Origin: Eubacteriales bacterium
Lineage (GTDB): Bacteria > Bacillota > Clostridia > Lachnospirales > Lachnospiraceae
Direction: 5' to 3'
Assembly (NCBI GenBank): GCA_030526005.1
Contig: JAUNDP010000001.1
Location: forward strand, 62,001 to 126,000
Length of the DNA: 64,000 bases
Shown here: in pieces, positions 5,558-59,254 of the stretch
Layout: every line of letters starts with the position of its first letter
Position numbering within the stretch: position 1 is the first letter of the stretch
Translations under genes and position numbers: made by a program
Notes under the pieces: generated by a model
The model's database searches: none
Told to the model about the DNA's origin: nothing
Seen by the model: only the letters and a program-made list of their open reading frames with translations

Positions 5558-7444
5558 ATGAAAATAGAAGTACTTGATCAAAGTACGATCGACAAAATTG
5601 CAGCAGGAGAAGTGATTGAACGGCCGGCATCTATTGTAAAAGAACTGGTGGAAAATGCAATCGACGCAGGAGCAAGTTCTGTCACAGTGGAAATAAAAGA
5701 TGGGGGAATCTCATTTATCCGAATTACAGATAATGGCGTAGGGATTCCCCAAAAAGAGGTGCCGTCTGCCTTTCTTCGCCATGCGACGAGCAAGATCAGA
5801 AAAGTGGAAGACCTCTTAGACATTCATTCTCTTGGATTTCGCGGCGAGGCGCTCTCAAGCATTGCAGCTGTATGTCAGGTAGAGATGCTGACAAAGACGC
5901 AGGAAAGCCTTGTCGGCATCCGCTATCAGATTGAGGGCGGGGAAGAGAAGGCAATGGAGGAAGTTGGAATTCCGGAAGGCACAACATTTCTGGTGCGCAA
6001 CCTTTTTTATAATACACCGGCAAGAAAAAAATTCTTAAAAAGCAATGTGACAGAGACGGGATATATCAGCGACTTGATTGAAAAGATGGCATTGTCGCAT
6101 CCGGAAGTTTCTTTTAAATTTATCAGCAACAGTCAGATCAAGCTGCATACTTCCGGAAATTGTGAGCTGAAAGATATTGTCTACAATGTCTTTGGAAGAG
6201 AAATTGCAAGTCAGGTGATGCCAGTCTGCAGACAGCAAGATGGGATTGTGCTGGAAGGACTGATCGGCAAACCGGTGATTTGCCGTGGAAATAGAAATTA
6301 TGAATGTTTCTTTATCAATGGACGGTACATAAAAAGCAAGATTTTGATGAAAGCGCTTGAGGATGGGTACAAGGCATTTTTAATGCAGCATAAGTATCCG
6401 TTTGCTGTACTTCATTTGAAAATGGACGGATCTTTATTGGATATCAATGTCCATCCGGCAAAATTGGAGGTACATTTTTGGGACAATGATAAGATGTATC
6501 GCCTGGTAGAAAGTACAATTCGAGGGATTCTGGAACAAAAAGAATTTATTCCAGAGATTTCATTTGGCGATGAAAAAGAGAGAAAGAAAACACAGGAAAA
6601 AAATTCGTTTCCAGAGCCATTTGAAAAAAGACGAATGATGCAGTTAAAAGAAGAGAAGAAAGAATACCATTGGGAAAATAAGGTTCCAAACAGAACGGAT
6701 ACAGACGCTTTCCTGAGGCGTGAACCAACATATTTTAAAACAGGAGACCGGAATCTGAATCAAGAAAGCGCTCCAAAATGCATAGAAAAACAATTTGAAA
6801 GCCATAGAGAGCAAAGACCGGTTCAGATTACACTGTTTGACAAAGAGGCAGCGGCAAAAAACGATACAGCCCAGTACCAGATCATAGGACAAGTATTTGA
6901 GACTTACTGGCTCGTCCAGTATCAGAATAAACTGTATATCATTGATCAACATGCTGCGCATGAGAAAGTATTGTATGAACGGACAATGAAAAGCTTAAAA
7001 GACCACTCTTTTACGTCACAAATGCTTTCTCCGCCTGTAGTGATTCCGCTGAGTATGCAGGAAGAAGAACTGTTTTTGCGGTATCACGCTTATTTTGAGG
7101 AGATCGGATTTGAGATCGAATCGTTTGGGGGAAGAGAGTATTCGATTCGGGCCATTCCAGGAAATTTATTTGGAATTGAGAAAAGAGAACTTTTTCTGGA
7201 ACTTCTCGACAGCTTAAACAATTTGAATGGGGAAGAAGAACCGGAGATTTTAAAAGAAAAAATTGCTTCCATGTCATGTAAGGCAGCCGTCAAAGGAAAT
7301 CATCAGATGACGAGACAGGAGGCAGAAAATCTGATATCAGAATTGTTAAAGCTGGAAAATCCATATCATTGTCCGCATGGAAGACCGACAATCATCTCCA
7401 TGACAAAGTATGAACTAGAAAAAAAATTCAAGAGAATTTTATAG
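5558..7444 (+). CDS. mutL: DNA mismatch repair endonuclease MutL
   Basis: Partner of MutS and, in bacteria lacking MutH, the strand-nicking endonuclease. The 628-aa protein has an N-terminal GHKL ATPase (ENAIDAGA, DNGVG, GFRGEAL) and a charged linker at about residues 340-440. Its C-terminal dimerisation/endonuclease domain carries the metal-binding DQHAAHE motif beginning at Asp463, plus a conserved CPHGRPT motif near the end. Presence of DQHA(X)2E(X)4E indicates a nicking-competent MutL. It sits between mutS and miaA. Confidence 0.97.
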   Translation: MKIEVLDQSTIDKIAAGEVIERPASIVKELVENAIDAGASSVTVEIKDGGISFIRITDNGVGIPQKEVPSAFLRHATSKIRKVEDLLDIHSLGFRGEALSSIAAVCQVEMLTKTQESLVGIRYQIEGGEEKAMEEVGIPEGTTFLVRNLFYNTPARKKFLKSNVTETGYISDLIEKMALSHPEVSFKFISNSQIKLHTSGNCELKDIVYNVFGREIASQVMPVCRQQDGIVLEGLIGKPVICRGNRNYECFFINGRYIKSKILMKALEDGYKAFLMQHKYPFAVLHLKMDGSLLDINVHPAKLEVHFWDNDKMYRLVESTIRGILEQKEFIPEISFGDEKERKKTQEKNSFPEPFEKRRMMQLKEEKKEYHWENKVPNRTDTDAFLRREPTYFKTGDRNLNQESAPKCIEKQFESHREQRPVQITLFDKEAAAKNDTAQYQIIGQVFETYWLVQYQNKLYIIDQHAAHEKVLYERTMKSLKDHSFTSQMLSPPVVIPLSMQEEELFLRYHAYFEEIGFEIESFGGREYSIRAIPGNLFGIEKRELFLELLDSLNNLNGEEEPEILKEKIASMSCKAAVKGNHQMTRQEAENLISELLKLENPYHCPHGRPTIISMTKYELEKKFKRIL

Positions 7445-32321: not shown

Positions 32322-34337
32322 TTAATCTTTCTTTTTGACAATACGATAATACGTTTTCGCTGTAAGAAAATATACAATCAAATATAGAAATCCAAACAGA
32401 ACAGCAGTGATGCCGGTACAGATACCAAACAGATGGAAATCTTTCAGCTTAAACAGCGTAAGCACCTGACATAAGGCTGGAAATGCGACAGCTGTATGCA
32501 GAAGAGACATTCCAAGCGGCAAGAAGAAGACAAGAATAATTTGGTGATGAATCGCTTTTTTGATCTCCTGATCGCTCATACCGACTCTCTGCATAATAAG
32601 AAAACGTTCTTTATCTTCATATCCCTCTGTAACCTGTTTGTAATAGATAATCAGAACAGTAGCAATAGCAAATACGGCTACAAAAAACAGACCAGCAAAA
32701 AAGATACTGCCATAAATCTGATAAAAATCTTCTCTGGCGGCTGAAAGCGTATCTACTGTGGCAAGATGTTCGCAGTAATTTAGATAATAGTTTCTGAGTG
32801 CATTGATTTCATAATTTTCCGATGCCAGATTATAATCGGAAAGATCATAATATTGTATCAGTTCATAACTGTATGTCATATCAGAAAGTTCTGCTACTTT
32901 TCTCACATCGTTTAAACGATGAAAAAGCTGATTGAATACTTCTTGATTTGGCAGAATCAAAATCATCTTTTCTCCATGGTATTCATTTGAAAGAAAACGT
33001 TTCCATTCTTGTTCGATCTCTACTTTTTTTAAAGAAAAACTCCATTCATCGATCTGAATTTCATCATATTGTGCGGTATCATCTTCTGTATAAAAAAATA
33101 CTTCATTTTCTGTTCCGGATAAAGGATATCCCGTAATTTTTTCAAAATCTTCTCTCACAAAGCAGGAAAACCGTTCCATATTTTCATATGTCTGCTCCCA
33201 TGCGGAGATAGAAAACTGACCTTTTGAATCCTCTACACATGTTAAATCCATTCTCTGAAAGGTCACTTCATTCTCTACTTTCACGCCGGATTTAGCAGCA
33301 TAGTCAGCCGCTATCTGGCTCATCCATTCAGGTGATACCGGTTCATCAAAATAAGATGAAACAGCAACCTCTCTTATAAAACGACTTCTTAAAATACTTT
33401 CTTCTCCAAAAAACAAGCTTGTGCATGTGGATACTGTAATCAAAACAGCAGTTGAGAGAATACAGATCGTCGCAAGTCCAGCAGCATTTTGCTTCATACG
33501 GTAAATCATCCCTGATACAGCGATAAAATTGGAAGGACGATAAAAAAAAGATTCTTTTCTGCGCAAGAATTTCAGCAATGAAATACTGCCGGTCAGCATA
33601 ACGCCGAATGTGCCTAAAATCACAAGCAGAACTGCCGGCAAAAACAGAAGAAACGCTTCATCTGGAGAGACAATATTCCATGCTGTGAGATAGCCGCCAA
33701 TAAGACACAAAAAAGAAAGAAATGCGAGGATACGGTGCGATCTCGGCTCTTTTTCTCCTTCATGGCTCTGACGCAGAAGATCAGCTGGGCTTGTTTTCGA
33801 TACACTAAATAAATCATACAGCAATACGAGAGAAAAAATAAATGCAGAAAAAATGACTGTAGACAGTACAGAATCAAAAGGAATGCGAAATGTCAGCTCA
33901 GACGGGATGTGAACAATCTTTAAAAGCACAAGAAACATAAGCTGACTTAAAAGCGCTCCGCTTCCTACAGCGACTACTGTACAGAACGTACCTACCAGAA
34001 TTACTTCAAAAAATAACATTGTCCGAATATGACGTTTTTCCATTCCTAAGATACGATAAATACTAAATTCTTTTTTTCTTCTCTTTAATAAAAAGCTGTT
34101 GACATAGAAGAGAAAGATAACAGCTACAATGCGATACAGTAATGCACACATACAAAGAATCGATGACATTTTAGATGCCCCGCGTACTTCTCCTGTGCGG
34201 ATCATATCTTCTACTGAGAGCAAGATATACAACAAAGCTAATGTGAAAGAGCAGCTGAATAAGTAAGGGAAATATAAAGTTTTATTCTTTCTGATTCCAT
34301 CTGCTGCCATCTTAAAATACAGAAAAAAGTTATTCAT
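32322..34337 (-). CDS. Bce-type ABC transporter permease (peptide antibiotic detoxification)
   Basis: A 671-aa FtsX-fold permease. The topology is ten hydrophobic segments with a large extracytoplasmic domain of about 200 residues (about 315-540) between helices VII and VIII, diagnostic of BceB/VraG-type permeases. Such transporters protect lipid II cycle intermediates from bacitracin, lantibiotics or similar peptides, and signal flux to a BceS-type kinase, here encoded at 36007-37011. It overlaps the ATPase gene by 4 bp. Substrate cannot be read from sequence. Confidence 0.9.
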   Translation of the reverse strand: MNNFFLYFKMAADGIRKNKTLYFPYLFSCSFTLALLYILLSVEDMIRTGEVRGASKMSSILCMCALLYRIVAVIFLFYVNSFLLKRRKKEFSIYRILGMEKRHIRTMLFFEVILVGTFCTVVAVGSGALLSQLMFLVLLKIVHIPSELTFRIPFDSVLSTVIFSAFIFSLVLLYDLFSVSKTSPADLLRQSHEGEKEPRSHRILAFLSFLCLIGGYLTAWNIVSPDEAFLLFLPAVLLVILGTFGVMLTGSISLLKFLRRKESFFYRPSNFIAVSGMIYRMKQNAAGLATICILSTAVLITVSTCTSLFFGEESILRSRFIREVAVSSYFDEPVSPEWMSQIAADYAAKSGVKVENEVTFQRMDLTCVEDSKGQFSISAWEQTYENMERFSCFVREDFEKITGYPLSGTENEVFFYTEDDTAQYDEIQIDEWSFSLKKVEIEQEWKRFLSNEYHGEKMILILPNQEVFNQLFHRLNDVRKVAELSDMTYSYELIQYYDLSDYNLASENYEINALRNYYLNYCEHLATVDTLSAAREDFYQIYGSIFFAGLFFVAVFAIATVLIIYYKQVTEGYEDKERFLIMQRVGMSDQEIKKAIHHQIILVFFLPLGMSLLHTAVAFPALCQVLTLFKLKDFHLFGICTGITAVLFGFLYLIVYFLTAKTYYRIVKKKD

Positions 34338-35098
34338 GATAAAATCCCTCCCTGAGAGAGCAGAGTCAGCGTATTTGAGATTTCCTGATACATTTCTTCA
34401 TTTGTGCGTGCTCCCTTGTAAATTTGATGGTATACCACGCCATCTTTCATAAATAAGACGCGGCCGGCATGACTTGCTGCCCGTATGCTGTGTGTGACCA
34501 TCAAAATCGTCTGCCCCATTTGATTGATCCGTTCAAAAACCTGGAGCAGATTTTCAGTTGCTCTTGAATCAAGCGCTCCTGTAGGTTCATCTGCAAGCAG
34601 CAGTTTGGGATTCGTAATTAATGCTCTGGCAGCAGCAGCACGCTGTTTTTGCCCTCCTGATACCTCATATGGATATTTTTTTAAGATATCTGAGATTCCA
34701 AGAATCTTTGCAAGCGGTTCTAATCGTTCTCTCATTTCAGGTACCTTTTTTCCTGACAGCACAAGAGGAAGAAAAATATTATCCTGAAGAGTAAATGTAT
34801 CGAGCAGATTGAAATCCTGAAATACAAATCCCAAATTTTCTCTTCGGTAAGCAGCAAGACGGCGTTCTGACACAGCAGCAAGATTTTGACCATCAACAAT
34901 AATTTCTCCGGAAGTAGGGCGGTCAAGCGAAGCCAGAAGATTTAATAATGTAGTCTTTCCGGACCCAGATTCCCCCATAATGGCTGCATATTCTCCTTGT
35001 TCTATTGAGAAAGTGACATCGGAAAGCGCCTCTACCTGATTGGAACTAAGATGACTGACATAAACTTTCTTTAAATGATTAACTTCTAATATTTTCAT
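34334..35098 (-). CDS. Bce-type ABC transporter ATP-binding protein
   Basis: A 254-aa ATPase with Walker A GESGSGKTT, ABC signature VSGGQKQRAAAARAL, Walker B LLLADEPTGALDS and switch His in VTHS. It belongs to the MacB/BceA class that pairs with FtsX-fold permeases, and it overlaps the permease gene by 4 bp. The start ATG has GGGAGGTATC upstream. The promoter before it (35128-35194) carries the tandem AATGTAAG operator described separately. Confidence 0.95.
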   Translation of the reverse strand: MKILEVNHLKKVYVSHLSSNQVEALSDVTFSIEQGEYAAIMGESGSGKTTLLNLLASLDRPTSGEIIVDGQNLAAVSERRLAAYRRENLGFVFQDFNLLDTFTLQDNIFLPLVLSGKKVPEMRERLEPLAKILGISDILKKYPYEVSGGQKQRAAAARALITNPKLLLADEPTGALDSRATENLLQVFERINQMGQTILMVTHSIRAASHAGRVLFMKDGVVYHQIYKGARTNEEMYQEISNTLTLLSQGGILS

Positions 35099-35127
35099 AG
35101 ATACCTCCCTGTTTTTTTTCTGTCTCT

Positions 35128-35194
35128 ATTATAAAAAAAGAGAAATGTAATTGCCATTGTTTTAGCTTACATTTCTCTTTGTTAATCTTACATT
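35128..35194 (-). promoter_or_regulatory. Operator-promoter of the ABC transporter operon (tandem AATGTAAG boxes)
   Basis: On the minus strand: AATGTAAG (35187-35194), 13 nt, AATGTAAG (35166-35173), 9 nt, weak -35 TGGCAA (35151-35156), 17 nt, -10 TATAAT (35128-35133). The two boxes are 21 bp apart, two helical turns, as expected for a dimeric OmpR-family activator. The poor -35 fits activator dependence. Identical spacing occurs at 35932-35998 and 55399-55465. Confidence 0.8.
35137..35180 (-). terminator. Terminator of the transglycosylase gene, overlapping the ABC operator
   Basis: A perfect 14-bp inverted repeat (35137-35150 with 35167-35180, 16-nt loop) followed on the minus strand by a T-run leading into TATAAT. 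It lies 23 bp past the transglycosylase stop. One arm contains the proximal AATGTAAG box and the other fills the -35/-10 spacer of the ABC promoter. Confidence 0.65.
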
Positions 35195-35202
35195 GACGTC
35201 AC

Positions 35203-35883
35203 TTATGGAATTACAACTGCACCAAGTTCAGACATCTGGCGCAGAATCTGATTTTTTCGCTGCTCTGCCAGGTCTGGATTTTGATTCAGATCATAGACAG
35301 ATGGAGCATTTGGTATACCTGCCAATGTGATACATTCTTCCTCCGTCAGATCTTGAACATCTTTTCCATAATAACCACGGCTTGCCTCTGCGATTCCATA
35401 ATAGCCGCTTCCAAAATAGATTGAATTTACATATAAAGCAAAGATTTCCTCTTTTGAAAAAGTCTGCTCCATTTTAAATGCCAGAAACATTTCAGCCGCT
35501 TTACGTTTCAGCATTTTTTCCTGCGTCAGATATTGATTCTTGGCAAGCTGCTGTGTGATGGTACTTCCTCCTTCTACATAACTACCAGCAGCAATATCAT
35601 GGATCACAGCGCGTCCAATGGCGATCAGATCAATACCGCAGTGTTTAAAAAAACGTTTATCTTCAGCGGCAATCACAGCTTTACAGTAGACATCAGGCAA
35701 ATCGCTGTATGGTATGAAATCTTCTTTACTCTCAATCTCATGCGCCATTTCATATAGATCTTTCTCTGCTAACTTTTCTTTTGCTGTTGTAATTCCGGAA
35801 ATACCTAAAACACCTGCTGCCAGAAAACAGATGATCAGGAAAGAAAGAATCAACAGTTTAAAACACTTTTTTATCCATTTCAT
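35203..35883 (-). CDS. Monofunctional biosynthetic peptidoglycan transglycosylase (GT51)
   Basis: Membrane-anchored glycosyltransferase that polymerises lipid II outside the cell without a transpeptidase domain (MtgA/SgtB class). Start ATG 35883 (MKWIKKCFKL), behind AAGGGGAGA; the frame continues upstream without an RBS. The 226 aa comprise a transmembrane helix (about residues 8-30) and the GT51 motifs EDKRFFKHCG with catalytic Glu, GGSTITQQLAKN, KRKAAEMFLA and YVNSIYFG. It lies between the ABC genes and the sensor kinase and has its own copy of the tandem operator, so it appears to be a regulated member of the detoxification module. Confidence 0.92.
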   Translation of the reverse strand: MKWIKKCFKLLILSFLIICFLAAGVLGISGITTAKEKLAEKDLYEMAHEIESKEDFIPYSDLPDVYCKAVIAAEDKRFFKHCGIDLIAIGRAVIHDIAAGSYVEGGSTITQQLAKNQYLTQEKMLKRKAAEMFLAFKMEQTFSKEEIFALYVNSIYFGSGYYGIAEASRGYYGKDVQDLTEEECITLAGIPNAPSVYDLNQNPDLAEQRKNQILRQMSELGAVVIP

Positions 35884-35931
35884 ATATGTTCTCCCCTTTT
35901 TCTTTTGTGTACAGTGAAATTTTCTAATATT

Positions 35932-35998
35932 AGTATAAAAGAAAGAACATGATCGTGCCATTCTCTTAGCTTACATTTCTTATATCAAACCTTACATT
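35932..35998 (-). promoter_or_regulatory. Operator-promoter of the transglycosylase gene (tandem AATGTAAG boxes)
   Basis: On the minus strand: AATGTAAG (35991-35998), 13 nt, AATGTAAG (35970-35977), 9 nt, weak -35 TGGCAC (35955-35960), 17 nt, -10 TATACT (35932-35937). All spacings equal those at 35128-35194. The boxes begin only 9 bp past the sensor kinase stop. Confidence 0.8.
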
Positions 35999-36006
35999 TT
36001 AGTAAG

Positions 36007-37011
36007 TTATTCTTCAAGAAGCGGGGGATGGGACAGATCAAGACGGACAATAGTTCCTATACGAACGTGTGACTCAATCGAAATGGTATGCCCCAGCAAA
36101 TCTGCAACTTGTTTGCAAAGAGAAAGTCCTATTCCAGTGGAACGTTTCTGAATCCGTCCATTATATCCGGTATATCCCCATTCAAAAATACGCGGAAGAT
36201 CTTCTGGTAAAATACCGATACCCGTATCTTGTATTACCAGACAAGAAGGAAGTTTTTTATCCATATAAATAGAGATCGTTCCTTGCTCCGGCGTATATTT
36301 TATTGCATTTGTCAAAAATTGTTCGATCAGAAAACAAGTCCATTTTTCATCTGTAATTACCATGTCATCTAGATCTTTTAAATCTAAACGGATTTTTTTA
36401 TAGATAAACAACGGCGCAATTTTTTTTACTACTTGTCTTACCATATCTGAGATATTATATTTTGCAATATGCAGATCGTTTGTATGATCTTCCAGTCGCT
36501 GATATTGGAGCGCCATATCAACGTATTGTTCAACTTTTAACAGTTCCAGTTCAATCTGACCGCGTTTTATAGATTCTTCCTGTAAAAGGAGGCGGATTGC
36601 AGAGAGCGGTGTTTTTATCTGATGACTCCATAATGTATAATACGTTTGCGTTCTGGAGGATTCGTCCTCTGCTTTTTTTTGCTCTTCCTGCAACGATTGC
36701 TGAAGAGATCGAATCAATTCCTGATAAAGATTTTCTTCTTCTGTATATGCTTTTGGCAAGGTTAAAGAGGTATAATCTTTCTGTGAGCAGCAGCGTTTTA
36801 GCTGAAAAATGTTTTTCCTTTTCTGTATCCAGATCAGTCCTCCAAACAGCAGAACAGTTGTCGCTGACAGAATAAGAGCATAAATCAGAGGAGAAAAAGG
36901 CAAAGCGTACAGAAAGAAAATGGCTGTCCATTCTAACGTACAGATCAGCATACAAAGCAGAATCCAGATCTGTTTTTTTATAAAATAAAGTAATCTTCTC
37001 ATTCTTCTCAT
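36007..37011 (-). CDS. Intramembrane-sensing histidine kinase (BceS-like)
   Basis: A 334-aa sensor kinase with two transmembrane helices (about residues 13-36 and 41-62) joined by only a few residues. Lacking an extracytoplasmic sensor domain, it should read the state of its ABC transporter, as BceS-type kinases do. The H-box is LWSHQIKTPLSA with phospho-acceptor His130. N-box EQFLTNAIKYTP and G-boxes DTGIGIL and STGIGLSL are present. It overlaps the response regulator gene by 4 bp. Confidence 0.92.
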   Translation of the reverse strand: MRRMRRLLYFIKKQIWILLCMLICTLEWTAIFFLYALPFSPLIYALILSATTVLLFGGLIWIQKRKNIFQLKRCCSQKDYTSLTLPKAYTEEENLYQELIRSLQQSLQEEQKKAEDESSRTQTYYTLWSHQIKTPLSAIRLLLQEESIKRGQIELELLKVEQYVDMALQYQRLEDHTNDLHIAKYNISDMVRQVVKKIAPLFIYKKIRLDLKDLDDMVITDEKWTCFLIEQFLTNAIKYTPEQGTISIYMDKKLPSCLVIQDTGIGILPEDLPRIFEWGYTGYNGRIQKRSTGIGLSLCKQVADLLGHTISIESHVRIGTIVRLDLSHPPLLEE

Positions 37012-37709
37012 TGCGGAGACTCCAGAAAATATCCCATTCCTTTTTTGGTTGCAATGATCGTTCCAAGACCGATACTTTCCAGTCTTTTTCTAAGCCTTGC
37101 CATGTTTACAGTCAGTGTATTATCGTCGATAAAATTGTCTGTCTCCCATAATTTCTGAATTAATTCCTCGCGTGTCACAATTTTTCCTGCATATTCCATC
37201 AATGTCTGCATCAAACGAAATTCATTTTTTGACAGTTCAATCTGCTGATTGTTGAAATTTAAAACAGCTTCACTGAGATTCAAAGAAATACTGCCATAAA
37301 AGAGGATATCCGGATTTTTTCCAAAAGTATATGTTCTGCGCAACATAGCCTGAATTTTGGCAACAGCAACTTCCAATCGAAATGGTTTTACGATAAAATC
37401 ATCTGCTCCCATATTTAATGCCATAACCTGGTTTAAATCGTCGCCTGCTGAGGATAAAAATACAACAGGGGTCTTGCTGATTTCTCTGATTTTATGACAC
37501 CAGTAGTATCCGTCATAAAATGGAAGTGAGATATCCATTAGAACAAGATGAGGGCTGCAAGCACGGAATTCCTCCAGGACATTTTGAAAATCCTGAATCG
37601 GATAGACTGAAAAATTCCACCGTGTCAGCTGGCGGCTTAGCACTTCCACAATAGAAGTGTCATCCTCCACAAGAAAAATACGATATCTTTCTTTTAATGT
37701 CTGATCCAT
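37008..37709 (-). CDS. OmpR/PhoB-family response regulator (BceR-like)
   Basis: A 233-aa regulator. Start ATG 37709 (MDQTLKERY) with AAAGGAG is chosen over an in-frame start at 37760. The receiver domain has acidic pair VEDD, phospho-acceptor Asp59 in LVLMDISLP and the conserved Lys in VKPF. The winged-helix domain ends with recognition helix NTLTVNMARLRKRL. It is co-encoded with the BceS-like kinase and is the leading candidate to bind the tandem AATGTAAG operators flanking its operon. No copy of that operator is seen at its own promoter, which would make it constitutive. Confidence 0.94.
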   Translation of the reverse strand: MDQTLKERYRIFLVEDDTSIVEVLSRQLTRWNFSVYPIQDFQNVLEEFRACSPHLVLMDISLPFYDGYYWCHKIREISKTPVVFLSSAGDDLNQVMALNMGADDFIVKPFRLEVAVAKIQAMLRRTYTFGKNPDILFYGSISLNLSEAVLNFNNQQIELSKNEFRLMQTLMEYAGKIVTREELIQKLWETDNFIDDNTLTVNMARLRKRLESIGLGTIIATKKGMGYFLESPQ

Positions 37710-37795
37710 ATAGACTCCTTTCTTTTTGCTTTCTTTATGATATTTCTGGTACAGATCCAAATCCAGTCCAGATTCCAGAATGTTTTCTGCGTTTT

Positions 37796-37804
37796 ATTAT
37801 ACCA
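37796..37804 (-). promoter_or_regulatory. Extended -10 promoter for the response regulator-kinase operon
   Basis: Minus-strand TGGTATAAT (TGn plus a perfect TATAAT at 37796-37801) about 90 bp before the regulator start; no good -35 hexamer is visible. It diverges from the promoter at 37848-37876. Confidence 0.5.
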
Positions 37805-37847
37805 AAAAGAAAGCATGTATTCCAGACAAAATCCGTTTTAAAAAAGA

Positions 37848-37876
37848 TTGTCCTAAATTACAGGATATGGTACGAT
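37848..37876 (+). promoter_or_regulatory. Predicted promoter for the SagB-type gene
   Basis: TTGTCC (37848-37853), a 17-bp spacer and TACGAT (37871-37876), 26 bp before the ATG, with AAAGGAGAG as the Shine-Dalgarno. Confidence 0.5.
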
Positions 37877-37902
37877 GAAAGAAAAAGAAAAGGAGAGTAG
37901 TT

Positions 37903-38700
37903 ATGAATGAACAGACAAAATATCATTTGATGAAGCGCAGAGAAATCTTGAAAAGTTATTCTGCTCTGGATGCCGGATGGGAAGAGAGCGATGAATCTCA
38001 GTCAGTGGAGCAGCCAGAATTATTTTTAGAAAAATCGGATAATAGAATCGTTCTTCCGCCACATGAAGAAACACCGCTGTGTAATCTTTCTTTCACAGAG
38101 CTTTTAACGGCTCGTCAGAGCACACGATCATATGAGGATAAGGATATGACCATGTCACAGCTTTCTTATCTTTTATGGGCAACACAGGGCGTACAAAAGG
38201 TGGTTGGGCGCAAGAAAAAAGCAGGATTCCGCACGGTACCGTCAGCCGGATGCCGTCATGCGATAGAAACGTACCTTGTAATCAACCGTGTATCTGGGCT
38301 TCAGGCTGGATTATATCATTATCTGCCTTTGACACACGAATTGGAACTTCTGGATGAGCAATGTGATAAAAAGCTGGTGTTGGAAGCAGTGGAAGGTCAA
38401 AAATTTGCAGCAGAAGCGCCTGTTCTATTTTTATGGACGGCGGTTCCGTATCGCATGGAATGGCGATATGTACAAAAAGCGATAAAGTATATCTTGCTGG
38501 ATGCAGGCCATATTTGTGAAAATTTATATTTGGCGTGCGAAATGATTGGATGCGGAGGATGTGCGATAGGGGCATACAACCAGGATGCAGCAGATGAATT
38601 GTTGATGCTTTCACCGGGACCTTCTGGAGAAAAAAGCTATGAATGTACTGTTTATGCGGCAGCAGTCGGTAGAAAAAAAGCGTCTGCAGAACAGAAATAG
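37903..38700 (+). CDS. SagB/ThcOx-family nitroreductase-like dehydrogenase
   Basis: A 265-aa FMN-dependent oxidoreductase of the nitroreductase superfamily. The core starts LLTARQSTRSYEDKDMTMSQLSYLLWATQG, typical of SagB-type proteins, and has the FMN-contact region TVPSAGCRHAIETYLVI. Family members oxidise azolines in ribosomally made peptides, but many stand-alone copies exist. No cyclodehydratase (SagC/SagD) or precursor gene is nearby, so peptide modification is not supported. A short N-terminal extension of about 60 residues precedes the domain. Confidence 0.85.
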   Translation: MNEQTKYHLMKRREILKSYSALDAGWEESDESQSVEQPELFLEKSDNRIVLPPHEETPLCNLSFTELLTARQSTRSYEDKDMTMSQLSYLLWATQGVQKVVGRKKKAGFRTVPSAGCRHAIETYLVINRVSGLQAGLYHYLPLTHELELLDEQCDKKLVLEAVEGQKFAAEAPVLFLWTAVPYRMEWRYVQKAIKYILLDAGHICENLYLACEMIGCGGCAIGAYNQDAADELLMLSPGPSGEKSYECTVYAAAVGRKKASAEQK

Positions 38701-53292: not shown

Positions 53293-53991
53293 TTGCCAAA
53301 TATTTTACTTGTGGATGATGAGCAAGCCATTGCCGATTTAATCGAGGTTTACTTAAAAAATGAAAATTTTACAGTGTATAAATACTACACTGGTCTGGAA
53401 GCGCTCCATTGCATTGATACAATACCGATTGATCTTGCCATTTTAGATCTCATGCTTCCGGATATTGACGGACTCACAATCTGCCAGAAAATCAGAGAAC
53501 ATTATACATTCCCCATTTTAATGCTGACAGCAAAAGATGGTGAGATTGACCAGATCAATGGTTTTGCTCTCGGCGCAGATGACTATATCACAAAACCATT
53601 TCGTCCTCTGGAATTAATCGCCAGAGTGAAAGCAAATCTGCGCCGTGTCACCTGTTATAACCAGTCAGAAAAATCAAGAGTAGGATCTTCGCTGCTCAGT
53701 GTGCGAGGTCTTTCCATCAATGCAGAAAGTCATGAATGTTTTCTGAATGAACGCCCTTTGTCACTGACTCCTACCGAATTTGAAATTTTAAAAATTTTAT
53801 GCGAAAATCTTGGAAAAGTCGTCAGCTCTGAAGAATTATTTCAAAGAGTCTGGAAAGAAAAATATTATGAGAATGCTTCAAATACAGTGATGGTTCATAT
53901 TCGCCATATCCGTGCAAAGATGAAAGAATCTGCTGAACGTCCAAAATATATAAAAACAGTATGGGGAGTGGGGTATAAAATCGATGAATAA
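53293..53991 (+). CDS. vanR: VanR-type response regulator
   Basis: A 232-aa OmpR-family regulator that starts at TTG 53293 behind GAGGAGAG. The receiver domain has acidic pair DD, phospho-acceptor Asp52 (LAILDLMLPDIDG) and the conserved Lys (DDYITKPFRPLEL, a segment very like VanR of glycopeptide resistance clusters). The C-terminal winged helix has NTVMVHIRHIRAKM. It overlaps vanS by 8 bp. It should control the operon starting at 55493, although the operator there matches those of the Bce-type module. Confidence 0.9.
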   Translation: MPNILLVDDEQAIADLIEVYLKNENFTVYKYYTGLEALHCIDTIPIDLAILDLMLPDIDGLTICQKIREHYTFPILMLTAKDGEIDQINGFALGADDYITKPFRPLELIARVKANLRRVTCYNQSEKSRVGSSLLSVRGLSINAESHECFLNERPLSLTPTEFEILKILCENLGKVVSSEELFQRVWKEKYYENASNTVMVHIRHIRAKMKESAERPKYIKTVWGVGYKIDE

Positions 53992-55105
53992 AAAGAAAAC
54001 CTTTTTTACACCGCTAAAAGTCATCGGCGGCGTTTTTTTATTTGTTCTGTTTATTGAATATCTGTTTGATCATGTTTTTAACGGTGTTTTTGTTGAATGG
54101 TTTGCAAGCAATTTTACATGGACGGAAACAGACTATGCCGGAAATATAGATACCAGCATAAACTGGAATGCTTTAACCGGTTTTTTGACAATGGCATTTT
54201 TCCTTTTTTGTCTTGTGCTTGCATTTGCCGTTTCCTTTTTAAAAAAGCAGCAGGCGAAAAGGACAAAGCGTGAAGTCATTGAGACATTTTCTGATCAACT
54301 AGATCAGTTTTTAGAAAAAAATGGAGATCTTTCTGTTTTTTCAAAAGATTTTTCTTCCATCAGTCTGCCGATCAGTAAACTTCAAAAAAATTCTTTGGAG
54401 AAGGAACGCCTTTTGGAACAGGAAATGCAGCAGAAAAATGATTTGATTACCTATCTGGCACATGATTTAAAGACACCGCTTGCTTCTGTGATTGGATATC
54501 TTTGTCTCTTGGATGAAACTCCAGATTTACCGGCTGATCTTCGAGAAAAATATATTGGAATCACACTTGAAAAATCATATCGTCTGGAACAGCTGATCAA
54601 TGAATTTTTTGAGATCACACGGTATAATCTGCACAAAATTGTTATCACACCAGGCAAAATTCATATTAAGCAGATGCTGCTGCAAATGGCTGATGAGTTC
54701 TTCCCTATTTTAGAAGCAGATAAAAAGAAAATTACCGTTGACGCTCCAGACGATTTTGTATTTGTAGGGGATGCGGATAAGTTAGCCAGAGTATTTAACA
54801 ATATTTTAAAAAATGCGGCATCTTACAGTGATCCCCAAACAACGATTCAAATTAAAGTAACGCCTGAAAAAGAAAATGTCAAAATTTCTTTTACAAATGA
54901 AGGAACTCCTATCCCAGCTCACTTGTGTCAGACAATCTTTGAAAAATTTTATCGTCTAGACAGTTCCAGATCAAGCAAAACAGGAGGTTCTGGACTTGGA
55001 CTGGCGATTGCAAAAGAGATTGTCACAGCTCATCATGGTGTTATAGAGGTAAAAAGTAATCCTCAATGCACTGTTTTTACTGTAACACTGCCAATCCATC
55101 AATAA
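53984..55105 (+). CDS. vanS: VanS-type sensor histidine kinase
   Basis: A 373-aa kinase with two transmembrane helices (about 10-33 and 62-86) enclosing a short extracytoplasmic segment of about 30 residues. HisKA follows with phospho-acceptor His160 (AHDLKTPLASV), then N-box NNILKNAASYS and G-box GGSGLGLAIAKE. The small sensor loop and placement match VanS of vanG-type clusters, in which the kinase/phosphatase responds to vancomycin or wall stress. Confidence 0.9.
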   Translation: MNKKKTFFTPLKVIGGVFLFVLFIEYLFDHVFNGVFVEWFASNFTWTETDYAGNIDTSINWNALTGFLTMAFFLFCLVLAFAVSFLKKQQAKRTKREVIETFSDQLDQFLEKNGDLSVFSKDFSSISLPISKLQKNSLEKERLLEQEMQQKNDLITYLAHDLKTPLASVIGYLCLLDETPDLPADLREKYIGITLEKSYRLEQLINEFFEITRYNLHKIVITPGKIHIKQMLLQMADEFFPILEADKKKITVDAPDDFVFVGDADKLARVFNNILKNAASYSDPQTTIQIKVTPEKENVKISFTNEGTPIPAHLCQTIFEKFYRLDSSRSSKTGGSGLGLAIAKEIVTAHHGVIEVKSNPQCTVFTVTLPIHQ

Positions 55106-55112
55106 AAAACAA

Positions 55113-55132
55113 CGAATCAAATATTTGATTCG
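55113..55132. repeat. Perfect 20-nt palindrome after vanS
   Basis: CGAATCAAA and TATTTGATTCG form an exact 20-nt palindrome 8 bp past the vanS stop, followed by ATTTTAT. It may be a weak terminator for vanRS or a protein-binding dyad. Confidence 0.6.
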
Positions 55133-55165
55133 ATTTTATCAATAAAATTTTTAAATTTTCTATCC

Positions 55166-55248
55166 CCCCTCGTATAGTGTTAAGGGCATAACTGAAACTT
55201 TCAGACCGTTTCGTGCCATTTCATTTGCGAGGGGATTTTTTCTTTTTT
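55166..55248 (+). terminator. Structured terminator-like element between vanS and vanG
   Basis: CCCCTCG (55166-55172) pairs with CGAGGGG (55228-55234), enclosing about 55 nt with possible inner helices (GGCA with TGCC; CTGAA with TTCAG), and followed by a T-rich tract 55236-55248. It may end vanRS transcription; the large interior is unusual for a simple terminator. Confidence 0.5.
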
Positions 55249-55398
55249 ATTTCTGTGCCCATTTTTTGTTGTTCGGAAATTTATTACATTTCCATAAGGA
55301 AATCTTAAGGCGTTTGGCAGATTCCTGCAAGAACTGTTTCTTCTTTTTCTGATAGGATAAGTCTTGTAAAAAATCCTATGTGACAAAAAAATGACATC

Positions 55399-55465
55399 TA
55401 TGTAAGATTTTAAAATGAAAATGTAAGACAAAACGATGTCAGTTTTTTCAAAGATTTTTTATAAT
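55399..55465 (+). promoter_or_regulatory. Operator-promoter of the vanG operon (tandem TGTAAG boxes)
   Basis: TATGTAAG (55399-55406), 13 nt, AATGTAAG (55420-55427), 9 nt, weak -35 TGTCAG (55437-55442), 17 nt, -10 TATAAT (55460-55465). Every spacing equals those of the two Bce-module promoters. The remaining intergenic DNA from 55249 to 55398 shows nothing I recognise. Confidence 0.8.
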
Positions 55466-55492
55466 AAAAGAAAAAAGAAGGGGTACTTATTT

Positions 55493-56542
55493 ATGATAAA
55501 TCATAAGAAAACAATCGCCATTTTATTTGGAGGAAAATCAAGCGAATATGCTGTTTCTCTGCAGTCTGCTGCCGCAGTGATACGGGCAATCAATCAAGAA
55601 AAATATAATCTGTTTCTGATAGGAATCGATCCATCTGGACAATGGTTCCATTTTAAAGGAGAGGTCAGTCAGATTGAAGCAGATACATGGAAATCTGATG
55701 CCATTCCAGCTTTTATTTCTCCCGATCCATCTGTCCATGGTATTTTAGAGCAGTCAGAATCTGGCATCTTTGCCTATCCTATTGACGCTGCCTTTCCAAT
55801 TCTGCATGGAAAAAACGGAGAAGATGGAACAATACAGGGGCTTTTGGAACTTGCCGGTATTCCCTGTATCGGATGTGGACTGCTTTCAAGCGCACTGTGC
55901 ATGGATAAAGACCGCGCCCATAAACTTGCCTTTCTTGCAGGAGTAAACGTTCCGCGCTGTATTAAAGTAGATAAAATCGGAACAGATGAACAGATGAGGC
56001 AGCAGGCAAAAGAACTGTCTTATCCAATCTTTGTAAAACCGATTCATGCCGGTTCTTCGTTTGGCATCACAAAAGTTGTAAAAGAAGAAGAACTGATGTC
56101 TGCTGTTGCCACAGCATTTACTTATGATACAGAAGTCATTTTAGAAGAAGCGATCGAAGGATTTGAAGTTGGATGTGCAATTATTGGAAAGGACAAACTG
56201 CAAACAGGAGAGATAGATGAAATTGAATTGTCGGAAGGTTTCTTTGATTTCACAGAAAAGTATACGCTTAAGACCTCAAAAATTCATATGCCTGCAAGAA
56301 TAGACGCTGAAACAGCAAACTTGATTAAAAAGACAGCTTGTCTGTTATATCGTACGCTCGGATGTTCTGGTTTTGCAAGGGTGGATCTGTTTGTAACACC
56401 TGAAAAAGAAATTTATTTTAATGAAATTAATACGATTCCGGGATTTACTTCTCACAGCCGCTTTCCCAATATGATGCGCGGGGCAGGTTATACTTTTGAA
56501 GCACTTGTCGAAAAACTGATTGAACAGGAGGTATCATCATGA
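55493..56542 (+). CDS. vanG: D-alanine-D-serine ligase (VanG type)
   Basis: ATP-grasp ligase that makes the D-Ala-D-Ser dipeptide, whose incorporation lowers vancomycin affinity of wall precursors. Start ATG 55493 behind GAAGGGG gives 349 aa, the VanG length; an upstream in-frame codon at 55436 overlaps the promoter. Motifs include LHGKNGEDGTIQG, VKPIHAGSSFGITK and FNEINTIPGFTSHSR. The omega-loop signature reads EKYTLKTSKIHMPAR (Glu-Lys-Tyr 255-257), which fits VanC/E/G-type D-Ser ligases rather than host Ddl. The adjacent VanXY and VanT genes agree. Confidence 0.9.
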   Translation: MINHKKTIAILFGGKSSEYAVSLQSAAAVIRAINQEKYNLFLIGIDPSGQWFHFKGEVSQIEADTWKSDAIPAFISPDPSVHGILEQSESGIFAYPIDAAFPILHGKNGEDGTIQGLLELAGIPCIGCGLLSSALCMDKDRAHKLAFLAGVNVPRCIKVDKIGTDEQMRQQAKELSYPIFVKPIHAGSSFGITKVVKEEELMSAVATAFTYDTEVILEEAIEGFEVGCAIIGKDKLQTGEIDEIELSEGFFDFTEKYTLKTSKIHMPARIDAETANLIKKTACLLYRTLGCSGFARVDLFVTPEKEIYFNEINTIPGFTSHSRFPNMMRGAGYTFEALVEKLIEQEVSS

Positions 56543-57123
56543 ATCATAGAGCAAATTTTTATTTACAGTTGGTTTCTCCCGACCATCCAGTTGAATTAGT
56601 CCCTGCTGATCAGGATCTGATTCCAGCCTTTAAAGCGTTCCCAGATATTTTAATGGAACGTTATGCTGCCTTTGCATTGCAGGCTCTCATAAACAGATTA
56701 CATGCAGATGGTCAGATTGTGCCCGTCAGCGGTTTTCGCACGCAGCAGGAACAACAAAAAATATGGGATGACACGGTAAAACAGAGTGGTCTGGCTTATA
56801 CGAAAAAATATGTTGCTATTCCAGGATGCAGTGAACATCAGACAGGTCTTGCGATTGATCTTGCGTTAAATAAAGAAAAAATAGATTTTATCTGTCCATC
56901 TTTTCCAAATGAAGGAGTCTGCCGTCAATTTCAGCAGCTGGCGCCTTTCTATGGATTTATTCTGCGATATCCAGAAGGGAAAGAGCAAGTCACTAAGATT
57001 GGATGGGAACCATGGCATTTTCGTTATGTTGGAACACCTCATGCACAGATTATTTCAGCGCATAATCTTACTTTAGAAGAATATCTGCTGCATACTTATA
57101 TTTCGAAAGCGTGTGCCAGATGA
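56539..57123 (+). CDS. vanXY: VanXY-type D,D-peptidase
   Basis: Zinc D,D-dipeptidase/carboxypeptidase that destroys D-Ala-D-Ala and D-Ala-ending precursors, so only D-Ser-ending ones remain. The 194-aa protein has the M15B/VanY motifs: SGFRT (Ser64-Gly-Phe-Arg67), SEHQTGLAIDL with zinc ligands His100 and Asp107, and EPWHFRYVG with catalytic Glu157 and zinc ligand His160. No signal peptide or membrane helix is seen, so it should act in the cytoplasm like VanX/VanXY. It is somewhat shorter than described VanXY proteins. It overlaps vanG by 4 bp and the next gene by 4 bp. Confidence 0.88.
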   Translation: MNHRANFYLQLVSPDHPVELVPADQDLIPAFKAFPDILMERYAAFALQALINRLHADGQIVPVSGFRTQQEQQKIWDDTVKQSGLAYTKKYVAIPGCSEHQTGLAIDLALNKEKIDFICPSFPNEGVCRQFQQLAPFYGFILRYPEGKEQVTKIGWEPWHFRYVGTPHAQIISAHNLTLEEYLLHTYISKACAR

Positions 57124-58151
57124 AAGAGCAGAAATATCCGGCAATGGACTGGATGAGAATGATCTGTGCTTTTTTGGTGGTAGCGATTCATACTTCTGTT
57201 CTTTCCTCGTTTTCTGAGACAGCGGATTTTTTTCTGACAGGAATTGTCTGTCGAATTGCAGTTCCATTTTTCTTTATGGTATCAGGATTTTTTCTGATGC
57301 CTAAAATAGCATCCCGTTTTTCTTCTGTCATAAAAACAGAAAAGAAACTGCTTGTCATGTACATGGCATCTGTTTTACTGTATCTTCCGCTGAATATTTA
57401 TGCAGGACAGTACTTTTTTAAAGATCTTCCTTCCTTTTTTCGGGCATTCTTTTTGGATGGAACCTTTTACCATCTATGGTACTTTCCGGCAGCAGCAGAG
57501 GGAATTTTGCTTCTTGGACTGATGCAGCGCTTGTTTTCCAGAAAAATCTGTATGTTTTTTTGCATTCTTCTGTATCTCATTGGTCTTGGGGGCGACAGTT
57601 ATTATGGAATAATCAAAGATATTCCATTGCTTCAATCATTTTATGATACTTATTTTCAAATCGGAACGTATACAAGAAATGGATTCTTTTTTGCACCTGT
57701 ATTTCTTTGCCTGGGCTGGATTTTATCAGATACCAGAAACAGATTATTTTTTCCGCACGCAAAGAAAATTTCATTGGTTTCTTTTGCACTGCTCATCGCA
57801 GAGGGATGGCTGCTGCATACATTTCAGATACCGCGCCATGACAGTATGTATCTGTATCTGCTTCCATGTATGTATGGAATATTTTCTGTGCTTACAGCTA
57901 TTCCATGCAGCAGTCAGATCTCTTTCCGAAAGATTTCAATGTTCATCTATATCATCCATCCCTGGGTGATTGTACTCGTGCGTGCTTTTTCTGGTTTTCT
58001 TCATCTGGATTCCTTCTTTGTAAATCAAAGTTTGATTCATTTTCTTGCAGTATCCGGTATATCTTATACTTTGGCGGTGATTTTATGGAAAATACAACAA
58101 AAAATTTTGAACAAAAAAAACATGAAATTTTTCGTACCTGGGCGGAATTAG
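57120..58151 (+). CDS. VanT membrane (acyltransferase-3) domain, separate gene
   Basis: A 343-aa membrane protein with about ten helices that matches the N-terminal half of VanT serine racemases, an acyltransferase-3-like domain proposed to import L-Ser. The N-terminus MDWMRMICAFLVVAIHTSVL carries the family His. In described VanC/E/G clusters this domain is fused to the racemase. Here it stops at 58151, 67 bp inside the racemase gene in another frame. ATG 57120 overlaps the vanXY stop (ATGA). Confidence 0.85.
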   Translation: MKEQKYPAMDWMRMICAFLVVAIHTSVLSSFSETADFFLTGIVCRIAVPFFFMVSGFFLMPKIASRFSSVIKTEKKLLVMYMASVLLYLPLNIYAGQYFFKDLPSFFRAFFLDGTFYHLWYFPAAAEGILLLGLMQRLFSRKICMFFCILLYLIGLGGDSYYGIIKDIPLLQSFYDTYFQIGTYTRNGFFFAPVFLCLGWILSDTRNRLFFPHAKKISLVSFALLIAEGWLLHTFQIPRHDSMYLYLLPCMYGIFSVLTAIPCSSQISFRKISMFIYIIHPWVIVLVRAFSGFLHLDSFFVNQSLIHFLAVSGISYTLAVILWKIQQKILNKKNMKFFVPGRN

Positions 58152-59254
58152 ACTTAAATGCTTTGCGGCAGAATGTCTCTGAGATAAAAAAGATTTTGCC
58201 TGACAGCTGTCAGATTATGGCTGTGGTAAAAGCAAATGCATATGGTCATGGAGATGTGCTCATTTCCAGTCATTTAAATCAGATGGGTATTTATTCCTTT
58301 GCTGTAGCTACATTAGAAGAGGCAATTCATCTGCGCAAATTTGGCATAGAAGGCAGTATATTAATTCTTGGATATACGCCTGCTCTCTATGCACCGGAGC
58401 TGATGCAGTATGATTTGACACAGACTGTCGCAGATTTTTCTCATGCACAGGAACTTGCAAAGACAAAGATTCCTGTAAAAGTTGAAATTAAAATCGATAC
58501 AGGAATGCATCGCCTTGGCATTACGCCGGAACATAACGAAGAAATTGTGTCTTTATTCTCTATTCCGACTTTTTCTGTCTGCGGAATGTATACACATTTA
58601 TGCGTCGCTGACAGTCAGGAGCCAGAAGATGTTGCGTTTTCCAAAAAGCAGCTGAAATCTTTTGCATATCTTACAGATCTGCTCGAGGCAGCAGGCATCG
58701 CTCTGCCGCCTCTGCATGTACAAAGCAGCTATGGGGTTTTAAATTATCCTTTTTTAAAATATGATTTTGCACGAATTGGAATTCTATTGTATGGCTGTCA
58801 CAGCCAGTTTGAAGAATCCTGTCTTATGAATCCTGATGTACGACCTGTTCTTTCGCTGTACAGTCATGTTGCACTGATTCGTGAAGTGGAAGAAGGAGAC
58901 ACCGTTGGATATGGCAGAACTTATAAAGCAAAAAGAAAAAGACATTTGGCTGTGATACCAGTTGGATATGCAGATGGATACCCTCGATCGTTATCCAATC
59001 GAGGGTATGTTTTAATTCACGGACAGCGTGCCAGAATTGTAGGCCGTATCTGCATGGATCAAATGATCGCAGATGTTACGGCGATTGAAAATGTCTGCGT
59101 TGGTGATCGCGTTACGTTAATTGGAAAGGATGGAAGAGACAGAATTTATGCCGAAGAACTTGCCGCACTTTCCAAAACCATTACAAATGAATTGCTCAGC
59201 CGATTAGGCTCCAGAATTACCCGTGTATTGCTTATTGATAAAAAATTTGAGTAA
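58085..59254 (+). CDS. vanT: VanT racemase domain (alanine/serine racemase), separate gene
   Basis: A 389-aa fold-III PLP racemase supplying D-Ser for VanG. The PLP lysine is Lys49 in AVVKANAYGHG; the catalytic Tyr is in VGYGRTY and a CMDQ motif is present. Asn368 (ITNELL) replaces the Tyr of alanine racemases (Tyr354 in Geobacillus Alr), the substitution known from VanT of vanG clusters to admit serine. Possible start ATG 58085 has GGCGGTGA (58073-58080). The open frame extends to 57866, and a -1 slip at 58115-58121 would instead fuse it to the membrane domain. Its 3' end overlaps hflC tail to tail by 23 bp. Confidence 0.88.
   Translation: MENTTKNFEQKKHEIFRTWAELDLNALRQNVSEIKKILPDSCQIMAVVKANAYGHGDVLISSHLNQMGIYSFAVATLEEAIHLRKFGIEGSILILGYTPALYAPELMQYDLTQTVADFSHAQELAKTKIPVKVEIKIDTGMHRLGITPEHNEEIVSLFSIPTFSVCGMYTHLCVADSQEPEDVAFSKKQLKSFAYLTDLLEAAGIALPPLHVQSSYGVLNYPFLKYDFARIGILLYGCHSQFEESCLMNPDVRPVLSLYSHVALIREVEEGDTVGYGRTYKAKRKRHLAVIPVGYADGYPRSLSNRGYVLIHGQRARIVGRICMDQMIADVTAIENVCVGDRVTLIGKDGRDRIYAEELAALSKTITNELLSRLGSRITRVLLIDKKFE

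Follow-up and report, generated by a model that had tools for sequence, protein, structure and literature searches.

The window, a stretch of 64,000 nucleotides from a Lachnospiraceae draft genome (contig C17 in our numbering), carries a vanG-type operon, vanR-vanS-vanG-vanXY-vanT, in which vanT occupies two genes (53293-59254), and, 19-20 kb from the vanG promoter, the genes bceR-bceS-MGT-bceA-bceB on the minus strand (37709-32322), where MGT denotes a monofunctional transglycosylase. Their features are collected in Table 1.

Table 1. Features of the Bce and vanG loci (window coordinates; R1 is the profile of bceA promoters described below)
Feature	Position	Strand	Basis or remark
BceB-like permease	32322..34337	-	FtsX; hydropathy
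BceA-like ATPase	34334..35098	-	ABC_tran
BceR-type promoter of bceAB	35127..35201	-	R1 49.3 bits
Monofunctional transglycosylase (MGT)	35203..35883	-	Pfam Transgly 211.9 bits; start codon by our reading
BceR-type promoter of MGT gene	35931..36008	-	R1 48.3 bits
BceS-like sensor kinase	36007..37011	-	hydrophobic in first 64 residues only
BceR-like response regulator	37008..37709	-	Response_reg + Trans_reg_C; tree; start codon by our reading
VanR response regulator	53293..53991	+	NCBIfam vanR_ACDEGLN 370.7 bits, cutoff 350
VanS-like sensor kinase	53984..55105	+	NCBIfam HK_VanS the top hit, 314.7 bits against a cutoff of 400
Degenerate VanR-type direct repeat CCATAAGGAAAT / TCTTAAGGCGTT	55292..55314	+	copies 11 bp apart
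Putative -10 TAGGAT of ancestral vanG promoter	55353..55358	+	50 bp from TCTTAA, as in L026
BceR-type promoter of vanG operon	55391..55466	+	R1 35.5 bits, E 4.5e-10 (window), 1.8e-8 (genome-wide)
Distal inverted repeat TGACA-TCTA-TGTAA	55392..55405	+	exact fit to published TNACA-N4-TGTAA (PMC9020739)
Proximal ATGTAAG	55421..55427	+	21 bp after first ATGTAAG
-35 TGTCAG	55437..55442	+	17 bp from -10; same columns kept as ATGGC in bceA promoters
-10 TATAAT of vanG Bce-type promoter	55460..55465	+	
VanG D-Ala-D-Ser ligase	55493..56542	+	NCBIfam VanG 539.7 bits, cutoff 495
VanXY-like peptidase	56539..57123	+	NCBIfam vanXY the top hit, 230.6 bits, slightly short of cutoff 250
VanT membrane subunit	57111..58151	+	NCBIfam vanT-CELN N-terminal half, 265.4 bits, below full-length cutoff 900
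VanT racemase subunit	58085..59254	+	NCBIfam vanT-G-Cterm 522.9 bits, cutoff 460; start codon by our reading

Gene content of the two loci

The VanS-like kinase has two hydrophobic segments, and the VanT racemase gene is separate from, and overlaps, the gene for the membrane subunit; the same two genes are found at the vanG locus (L026) of a genus-mate, genome G105, so the split is probably no sequencing slip. The best VanG relative, at 70% identity, comes from a Lachnospiraceae metagenome-assembled genome, and between the window and L026 VanR is 84-85% and VanG 70% identical. In both genomes the operon adjoins the same glycoside hydrolase gene (82% identity), the genes between differing, which suggests vertical descent; that shared neighbor and the lack of a near match in 72,556 plasmid records led us to reject a mobile operon. 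In G105 a BceS/BceR-like gene pair lies between vanT and the glycoside hydrolase gene (L026 10819-12371), where the window has hflC and hflK. An inverted repeat, CCCCTCG...CGAGGGG followed by T's (55165-55250), lies between vanS and the vanG promoters, and by eye it reads as the terminator of vanRS.

By crude hydropathy the second locus has the makeup of a Bce module, with a kinase devoid of an extracellular domain, a permease with a large extracellular stretch (two groups of hydrophobic segments with some 225 residues between them that contain none) and regulator and kinase genes beside those of the transporter; among the NCBIfam matches listed for its proteins there is no Bce-specific model. 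A SagB-type/nitroreductase-family protein is encoded next to bceR (37903-38700).

Promoter profile and search sets

The R1 profile was derived from 23 aligned bceA promoters, all from other genomes, at Bce modules located by kinase or regulator homology. These rows were taken from 33 candidate sites at Bce modules, six loci selected by their box being left uncounted; five stretches with neither a site nor bceA, two loci where the inverted repeat is present and the downstream part deviates, two divergent paralogues (L192, L195) and the site of the window's own genome, which was held out, were excluded, and L178 was omitted as a duplicate of L193. Because the choice at each locus fell on whichever site best fitted a pattern similar to the window's box, the training set is biased towards box-like sites. 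The alignment displays an inverted repeat, a TGTAAG that follows it by 20 or 21 bp, a conserved ATGGC in the -35 region and a -10 element.

The profile was also run on 299 genomes from 298 genera of the family at E<=1e-4 and under stricter filters; the resulting counts are lower bounds, with 11 listed BceA rows left out for low identity or position at a contig edge. The orthologue set comprises the best 80 of 481 vanG relatives found; three of these loci have fewer than 140 bases upstream, and promoter counts use the other 77. The genus is further represented by one genus-mate with vanG (G105) and by a third genome, G150, without it.

A BceR-type promoter upstream of vanG

The region 55399-55465 reads TATGTAAG-N13-AATGTAAG-N9-TGTCAG-N17-TATAAT, as the initial annotation had it, and the box extends further upstream to an inverted repeat overlooked there, which fits the BceR-like operator consensus given for BceRS-BceAB modules of Bacillota, TNACA-N4-TGTAA (PMC9020739); the bceA and MGT sites deviate from this consensus by one base each, counted by eye. 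The initial annotation had also claimed base-for-base identical spacing with the two promoters about 19 kb away, and the measurements bear it out: the first and second ATGTAAG start 21 bp apart at vanG (55400/55421), bceA (35193/35172) and MGT (35997/35976), and the second ATGTAAG lies 39 bp from the start of the -10 in all three (55421/55460, 35172/35133 and 35976/35937). TGTCAG is best read as the -35 element, and both promoter hexamers, together with a GAAGGGG ribosome-binding site, are correctly positioned ahead of vanG.

R1 returns exactly three matches in the window, at bceA, MGT and vanG, with nothing further at E up to 10 and no match upstream of bceR. A genome-wide motif search, which the initial annotation had put forward as the way to define the regulon, yields four strong R1 matches, of which the vanG site is the weakest, and a next best of 9.0 bits; the fourth is the bceA promoter of a second Bce module on contig C50, the highest-scoring site of the genome (67.7 bits).

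In the draft genome (2,514,093 bases) the exact pair WATGTAAG-N13-WATGTAAG has three occurrences, all of them in the window, and its backwards control has none; allowing up to two mismatches gives three sites at zero, none at one and 23 at two, against 51 sites for the control, so the three exact pairs stand apart from chance. Across the family, exact pairs are present in 19 of 150 genomes, the own one included, and only six of 19 places outside the own genome adjoin Bce genes; as a sole criterion the pair was dropped as too loose. Each of the six Bce-adjoining pairs lies ahead of bceA or bceB and widens into an inverted repeat similar to CTTACA-N4-TGTAAG. The inverted repeat on its own was likewise dropped as evidence, its two exact occurrences in the window (0.58 expected) being matched by 15 of 100 shuffles. 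Another family of ATGTAAG pairs, with the common core GAAC-GT-GATGTTC, was noticed in three genomes (L004, L006, L020), where it adjoins a two-component pair weakly like VanR/VanS (41-42% / 22-27%).

vanG orthologues and a putative older VanR-type promoter

The motif reported for VanRG of Enterococcus faecalis, (T/C)CGTANGAAA(T/A)T (PMC4405338), is found with at most one mismatch in 32 of 77 vanG upstream regions (1.3 expected) and with at most two in 51 (14.8 expected), and 11 bp is the commonest spacing between paired copies (22 pairs). R1 has no match at E<=5 across the 80 vanG loci (891,134 bases), and a box-pair scan of the same loci gives only one weak match (L083, 3 mismatches). In the family sample, an R1 site at vanG is present, among the matches listed, in one of 46 vanG genomes, the own one, and at least 33 of the 46, again counting the own, have an R1 site somewhere. 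The initial annotation had named a lack of conserved paired boxes ahead of vanG orthologues as a refutation of its reading, and in the loci examined the boxes are indeed not conserved, which counts against it. Since a profile built from other genomes picks out the vanG site, we read this absence as a lineage-specific gain; cross-species conservation gives no sign of selection, as no other examined vanG locus has the box.

In the window, VanR motif copies within two mismatches are lacking both from 55315-55492, where the best have three (at 55364 and 55411), and from the region upstream of vanR. The degenerate repeat of Table 1 sits 77-99 bp ahead of the Bce-type promoter; its first copy has two mismatches to the VanRG consensus and its second, counted by eye, about four, and it resembles the pair CCATAAGAAAAT / TCTTAAGAAATT at locus L065. 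In L026 the distance from TCTTAA to a -10-like hexamer is 50 bp (5892 to 5942), the same as in the window, and the two loci align over this older promoter with a score of 78, reached by none of 300 resampled pairs (null maximum 67). With L073, a more distant locus, the window gives no significant alignment (68 of 300 resampled pairs), and local alignments of the window's vanR promoter with that of L026 (46/300) and of the window's vanG and vanR promoters with each other (218/300) are not significant either. Upstream of vanG, L026 has no VanR motif copy within two mismatches, so the VanR site of its clade is probably a variant; its vanR upstream region contains TCTTAAGAAAAT, one mismatch from the motif.

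By our own reading of starts and coordinates, the -10-like hexamer of the window is 140 bp away from the vanG ATG, against 56 bp in L026. The window's leader is thus 84 bp longer, about the length of one R1 promoter, and the simplest history would be that a Bce promoter was gained in the interval separating vanG from the old promoter. A gain in the window's lineage, as opposed to a loss in L026, is suggested because other species have no Bce promoter there.

Regulatory model and alternatives

Taken together, we favor, with a probability of roughly 0.7, a vanG operon with tandem promoters, an ancestral VanR-type one (55292-55358) and a gained BceR-type one (55391-55466), a model that rests on sequence comparison. 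On this evidence the vanG box is, by prediction, a BceR-type operator and not VanR's. In the mechanism we propose, a BceS/BceAB complex would detect when peptide antibiotics attack the lipid II cycle, and would phosphorylate BceR; BceR-P would bind the inverted repeat and the proximal half-site, just upstream of a weak -35, and recruit RNA polymerase to the vanG promoter, so that vanG-vanXY-vanT would be switched on jointly with bceAB and the transglycosylase, while VanRS may contribute vancomycin-dependent transcription from the upstream promoter. Two alarm systems sharing one resistance operon is what the arrangement suggests.

Which BceR would act at vanG is a further matter, and the one at the window's own module is favored by box spacing and promoter identity. 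The spacing is 21 bp at vanG and at the C17 promoters and 20 bp at bceA of C50, and the vanG promoter shares 70% identity with the C17 bceA promoter, against 58% with that of C50 (56-58% with the other five compared), a hint that it was perhaps locally derived. An unlikely but substantial alternative assigns the box to the second BceR, of the C50 module, or to both: the recognition helices of the two are nearly identical (NTLTVNMARLRKKL against NTLTVNMARLRKRL), no site of the genome matches R1 more strongly than the bceA promoter of C50, and the only close BceR of G105 (53%, contig C161) groups with that of C50 although the MGT promoter of G105 has the 21-bp spacing, so that 21-bp sites may be within reach of a C50-type BceR. 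We rejected the idea that box spacing strictly follows BceR lineage, the tree showing only a loose tie (7 changes on 28 labelled rows). The third BceR of the genome (contig C58, L192) has a different helix, NTLTVLISRLRAKL, and a different box at its bceA promoter. L192 and its G105 counterpart L195 (contig C68) form a divergent Bce-like module, with the boxes TGTAAC and TGTTAG, respectively; the altered box and helix of L192 represent a possible natural switch of specificity.

It is about as improbable that the BceR promoter replaced VanR control altogether, the upstream site having decayed and VanRS no longer driving the operon. Such a replacement would account for the degenerate repeat and for the -10 TAGGAT, as well as for the missing VanR motif upstream of the window's vanR, where L026 retains a copy. 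Against it, VanR is better conserved between the genus-mates than VanG, so that VanRS seems still to be under selection, and VanRG of E. faecalis likewise does not bind its own promoter (PMC4405338).

Binding of VanR itself to the ATGTAAG pair, with the likeness to Bce promoters a convergence on a common GTAAG core, we judge very unlikely, given motif, spacing and the orthologue survey. The published VanR motif (PMC4405338) does share GTA-G with TGTAAG and the box lies directly upstream of vanG, but the box region holds no VanR motif within two mismatches, VanR repeats are mostly 11 bp and not 21 bp apart, the 76-bp likeness covers inverted repeat, -35, -10 and spacing, and L026, with so similar a VanR, has no box and aligns over the older site. 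The initial annotation had supposed that VanR and BceR might share one box. Their recognition helices do differ as it quoted them from the translations, but sharing is not supported: VanR has a motif of its own, within one mismatch at 32 of 77 orthologue loci, whose degenerate copy lies upstream of the box. A chance or non-functional resemblance, which the single genome and the lack of conservation at other vanG loci would allow, is the least credible reading, given 35.5 bits against a next best of 9.0 genome-wide, the absence of R1 matches at E<=5 from vanG loci totalling 891,134 bases, and a correctly placed -35, -10 and ribosome-binding site.

Envelope genes behind predicted BceR-type promoters across the family

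At least 118 of 299 family genomes have an R1 match at E<=1e-4. The 150 listed sites precede bceA/bceB-type genes (127), MGT genes (8), VanZ-like genes (6), vanG (1) and other or unclear genes (8). By position, 117 are followed within 450 bp by a BceA match, and one, the own, is followed by a vanG match; two of the remaining 32 are the MGT sites of the genus (own, and G105 contig C188), and the other 30 precede BceA-type (7), BceB-type (3), MGT (6), VanZ-like (6) and other or unclear genes (8). Thirteen of the 14 MGT and VanZ sites, all but the own MGT, are on contigs with no BceA match among the matches listed, in draft assemblies whose contigs are in some cases short, and for this operator to act at a distance therefore looks usual. 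With due caution for draft assemblies, predicted BceR-type sites recur at envelope genes that stand apart from the transporter.

Stand-alone MGT genes lie behind BceR-type promoters in seven other genomes. VanZ-like genes do so in six Lachnospiraceae genomes, four of the six encoding VanZ plus an RDD domain; their contigs have no listed bceA. The survey thus predicts a Lachnospiraceae Bce regulon of bceAB, monofunctional transglycosylase and VanZ-like proteins.

At the MGT locus of G105 (L275, compared with window 32322-38700), YccF, a C39 peptidase, MGT and ten further genes keep the window order, whereas bceAB, bceRS and the nitroreductase-like gene are absent. The Bce module looks to have been inserted around MGT or lost in G105; because the G105 MGT keeps its BceR-type promoter, MGT seems older as a BceR-type target than as a member of the module, unless G105 lost the module.

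The joint envelope-stress regulon that the initial annotation proposed remains the best reading insofar as vanG, MGT and bceAB share one predicted operator type; its other part, a box shared by VanR and BceR, is not supported. More tentatively, and with slightly less than even odds, the complete BceR promoter may act as a plug-in unit, by which D-Ala-D-Ser switching would answer a transporter-based flux sensor as well as a glycopeptide sensor. As BceR promoters are also found at transglycosylase and VanZ genes, BceR would in that case serve as a regulator of the lipid II cycle with several defences under it, and not as the switch of a single transporter, and lantibiotics or bacitracin would pre-induce vancomycin tolerance. 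If the operon has indeed been captured by a peptide-antibiotic sensor, glycopeptide tolerance could be turned on by lantibiotics of the gut or by bacitracin, and the window would offer a clear example of a resistance operon rewired, between closely related genomes, through the gain of a promoter.

Comparison with known systems

A search of the open-access literature, most subscription papers lying outside its scope, found no report of a van operon controlled by a BceR-like regulator; BceR and vanG as whole words occur together in a single paper there, through an author name. In the accessible text of the sources consulted, van operons are described under the control of their own VanRS, with VanU in addition in E. 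faecalis VanG (PMC8541618, PMC4405338). Bce-family regulators that control, or are predicted to control, other envelope genes are known, as with GraR at mprF and dlt in Staphylococcus aureus (PMC3128592), BceSR at sstFEG in Streptococcus suis (PMC6819616) and a putative box at dlt in Lactococcus lactis (PMC7438565). The window resembles these cases in that respect, but their targets are charge-modification and efflux genes, and its own is a precursor-switching van operon with a regulator of its own.

Like the BceRS-BceAB modules described in PMC9020739, the window's module has a kinase that is hydrophobic only N-terminally, an ABC transporter whose two hydrophobic groups are separated by a long stretch, the operator consensus at the transporter promoter and a bceR with no R1 match upstream. 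It differs from that description in the half-site that Lachnospiraceae promoters add 20-21 bp downstream, with ATGGC at the -35, and in a predicted regulon that reaches MGT, VanZ and, in the window, vanG. The vanG operon of E. faecalis BM4518 is controlled by VanRG and VanUG (PMC4405338); the window shares with it VanRS ahead of the D-Ala-D-Ser genes and, in a putative, degenerate form, direct repeats of VanR type before the resistance genes, and departs from it in making VanT from two genes and in placing a BceR-type promoter between the VanR-type site and vanG. Operator and regulators are thus of known kinds, and the wiring predicted here, in one genome, would be new.
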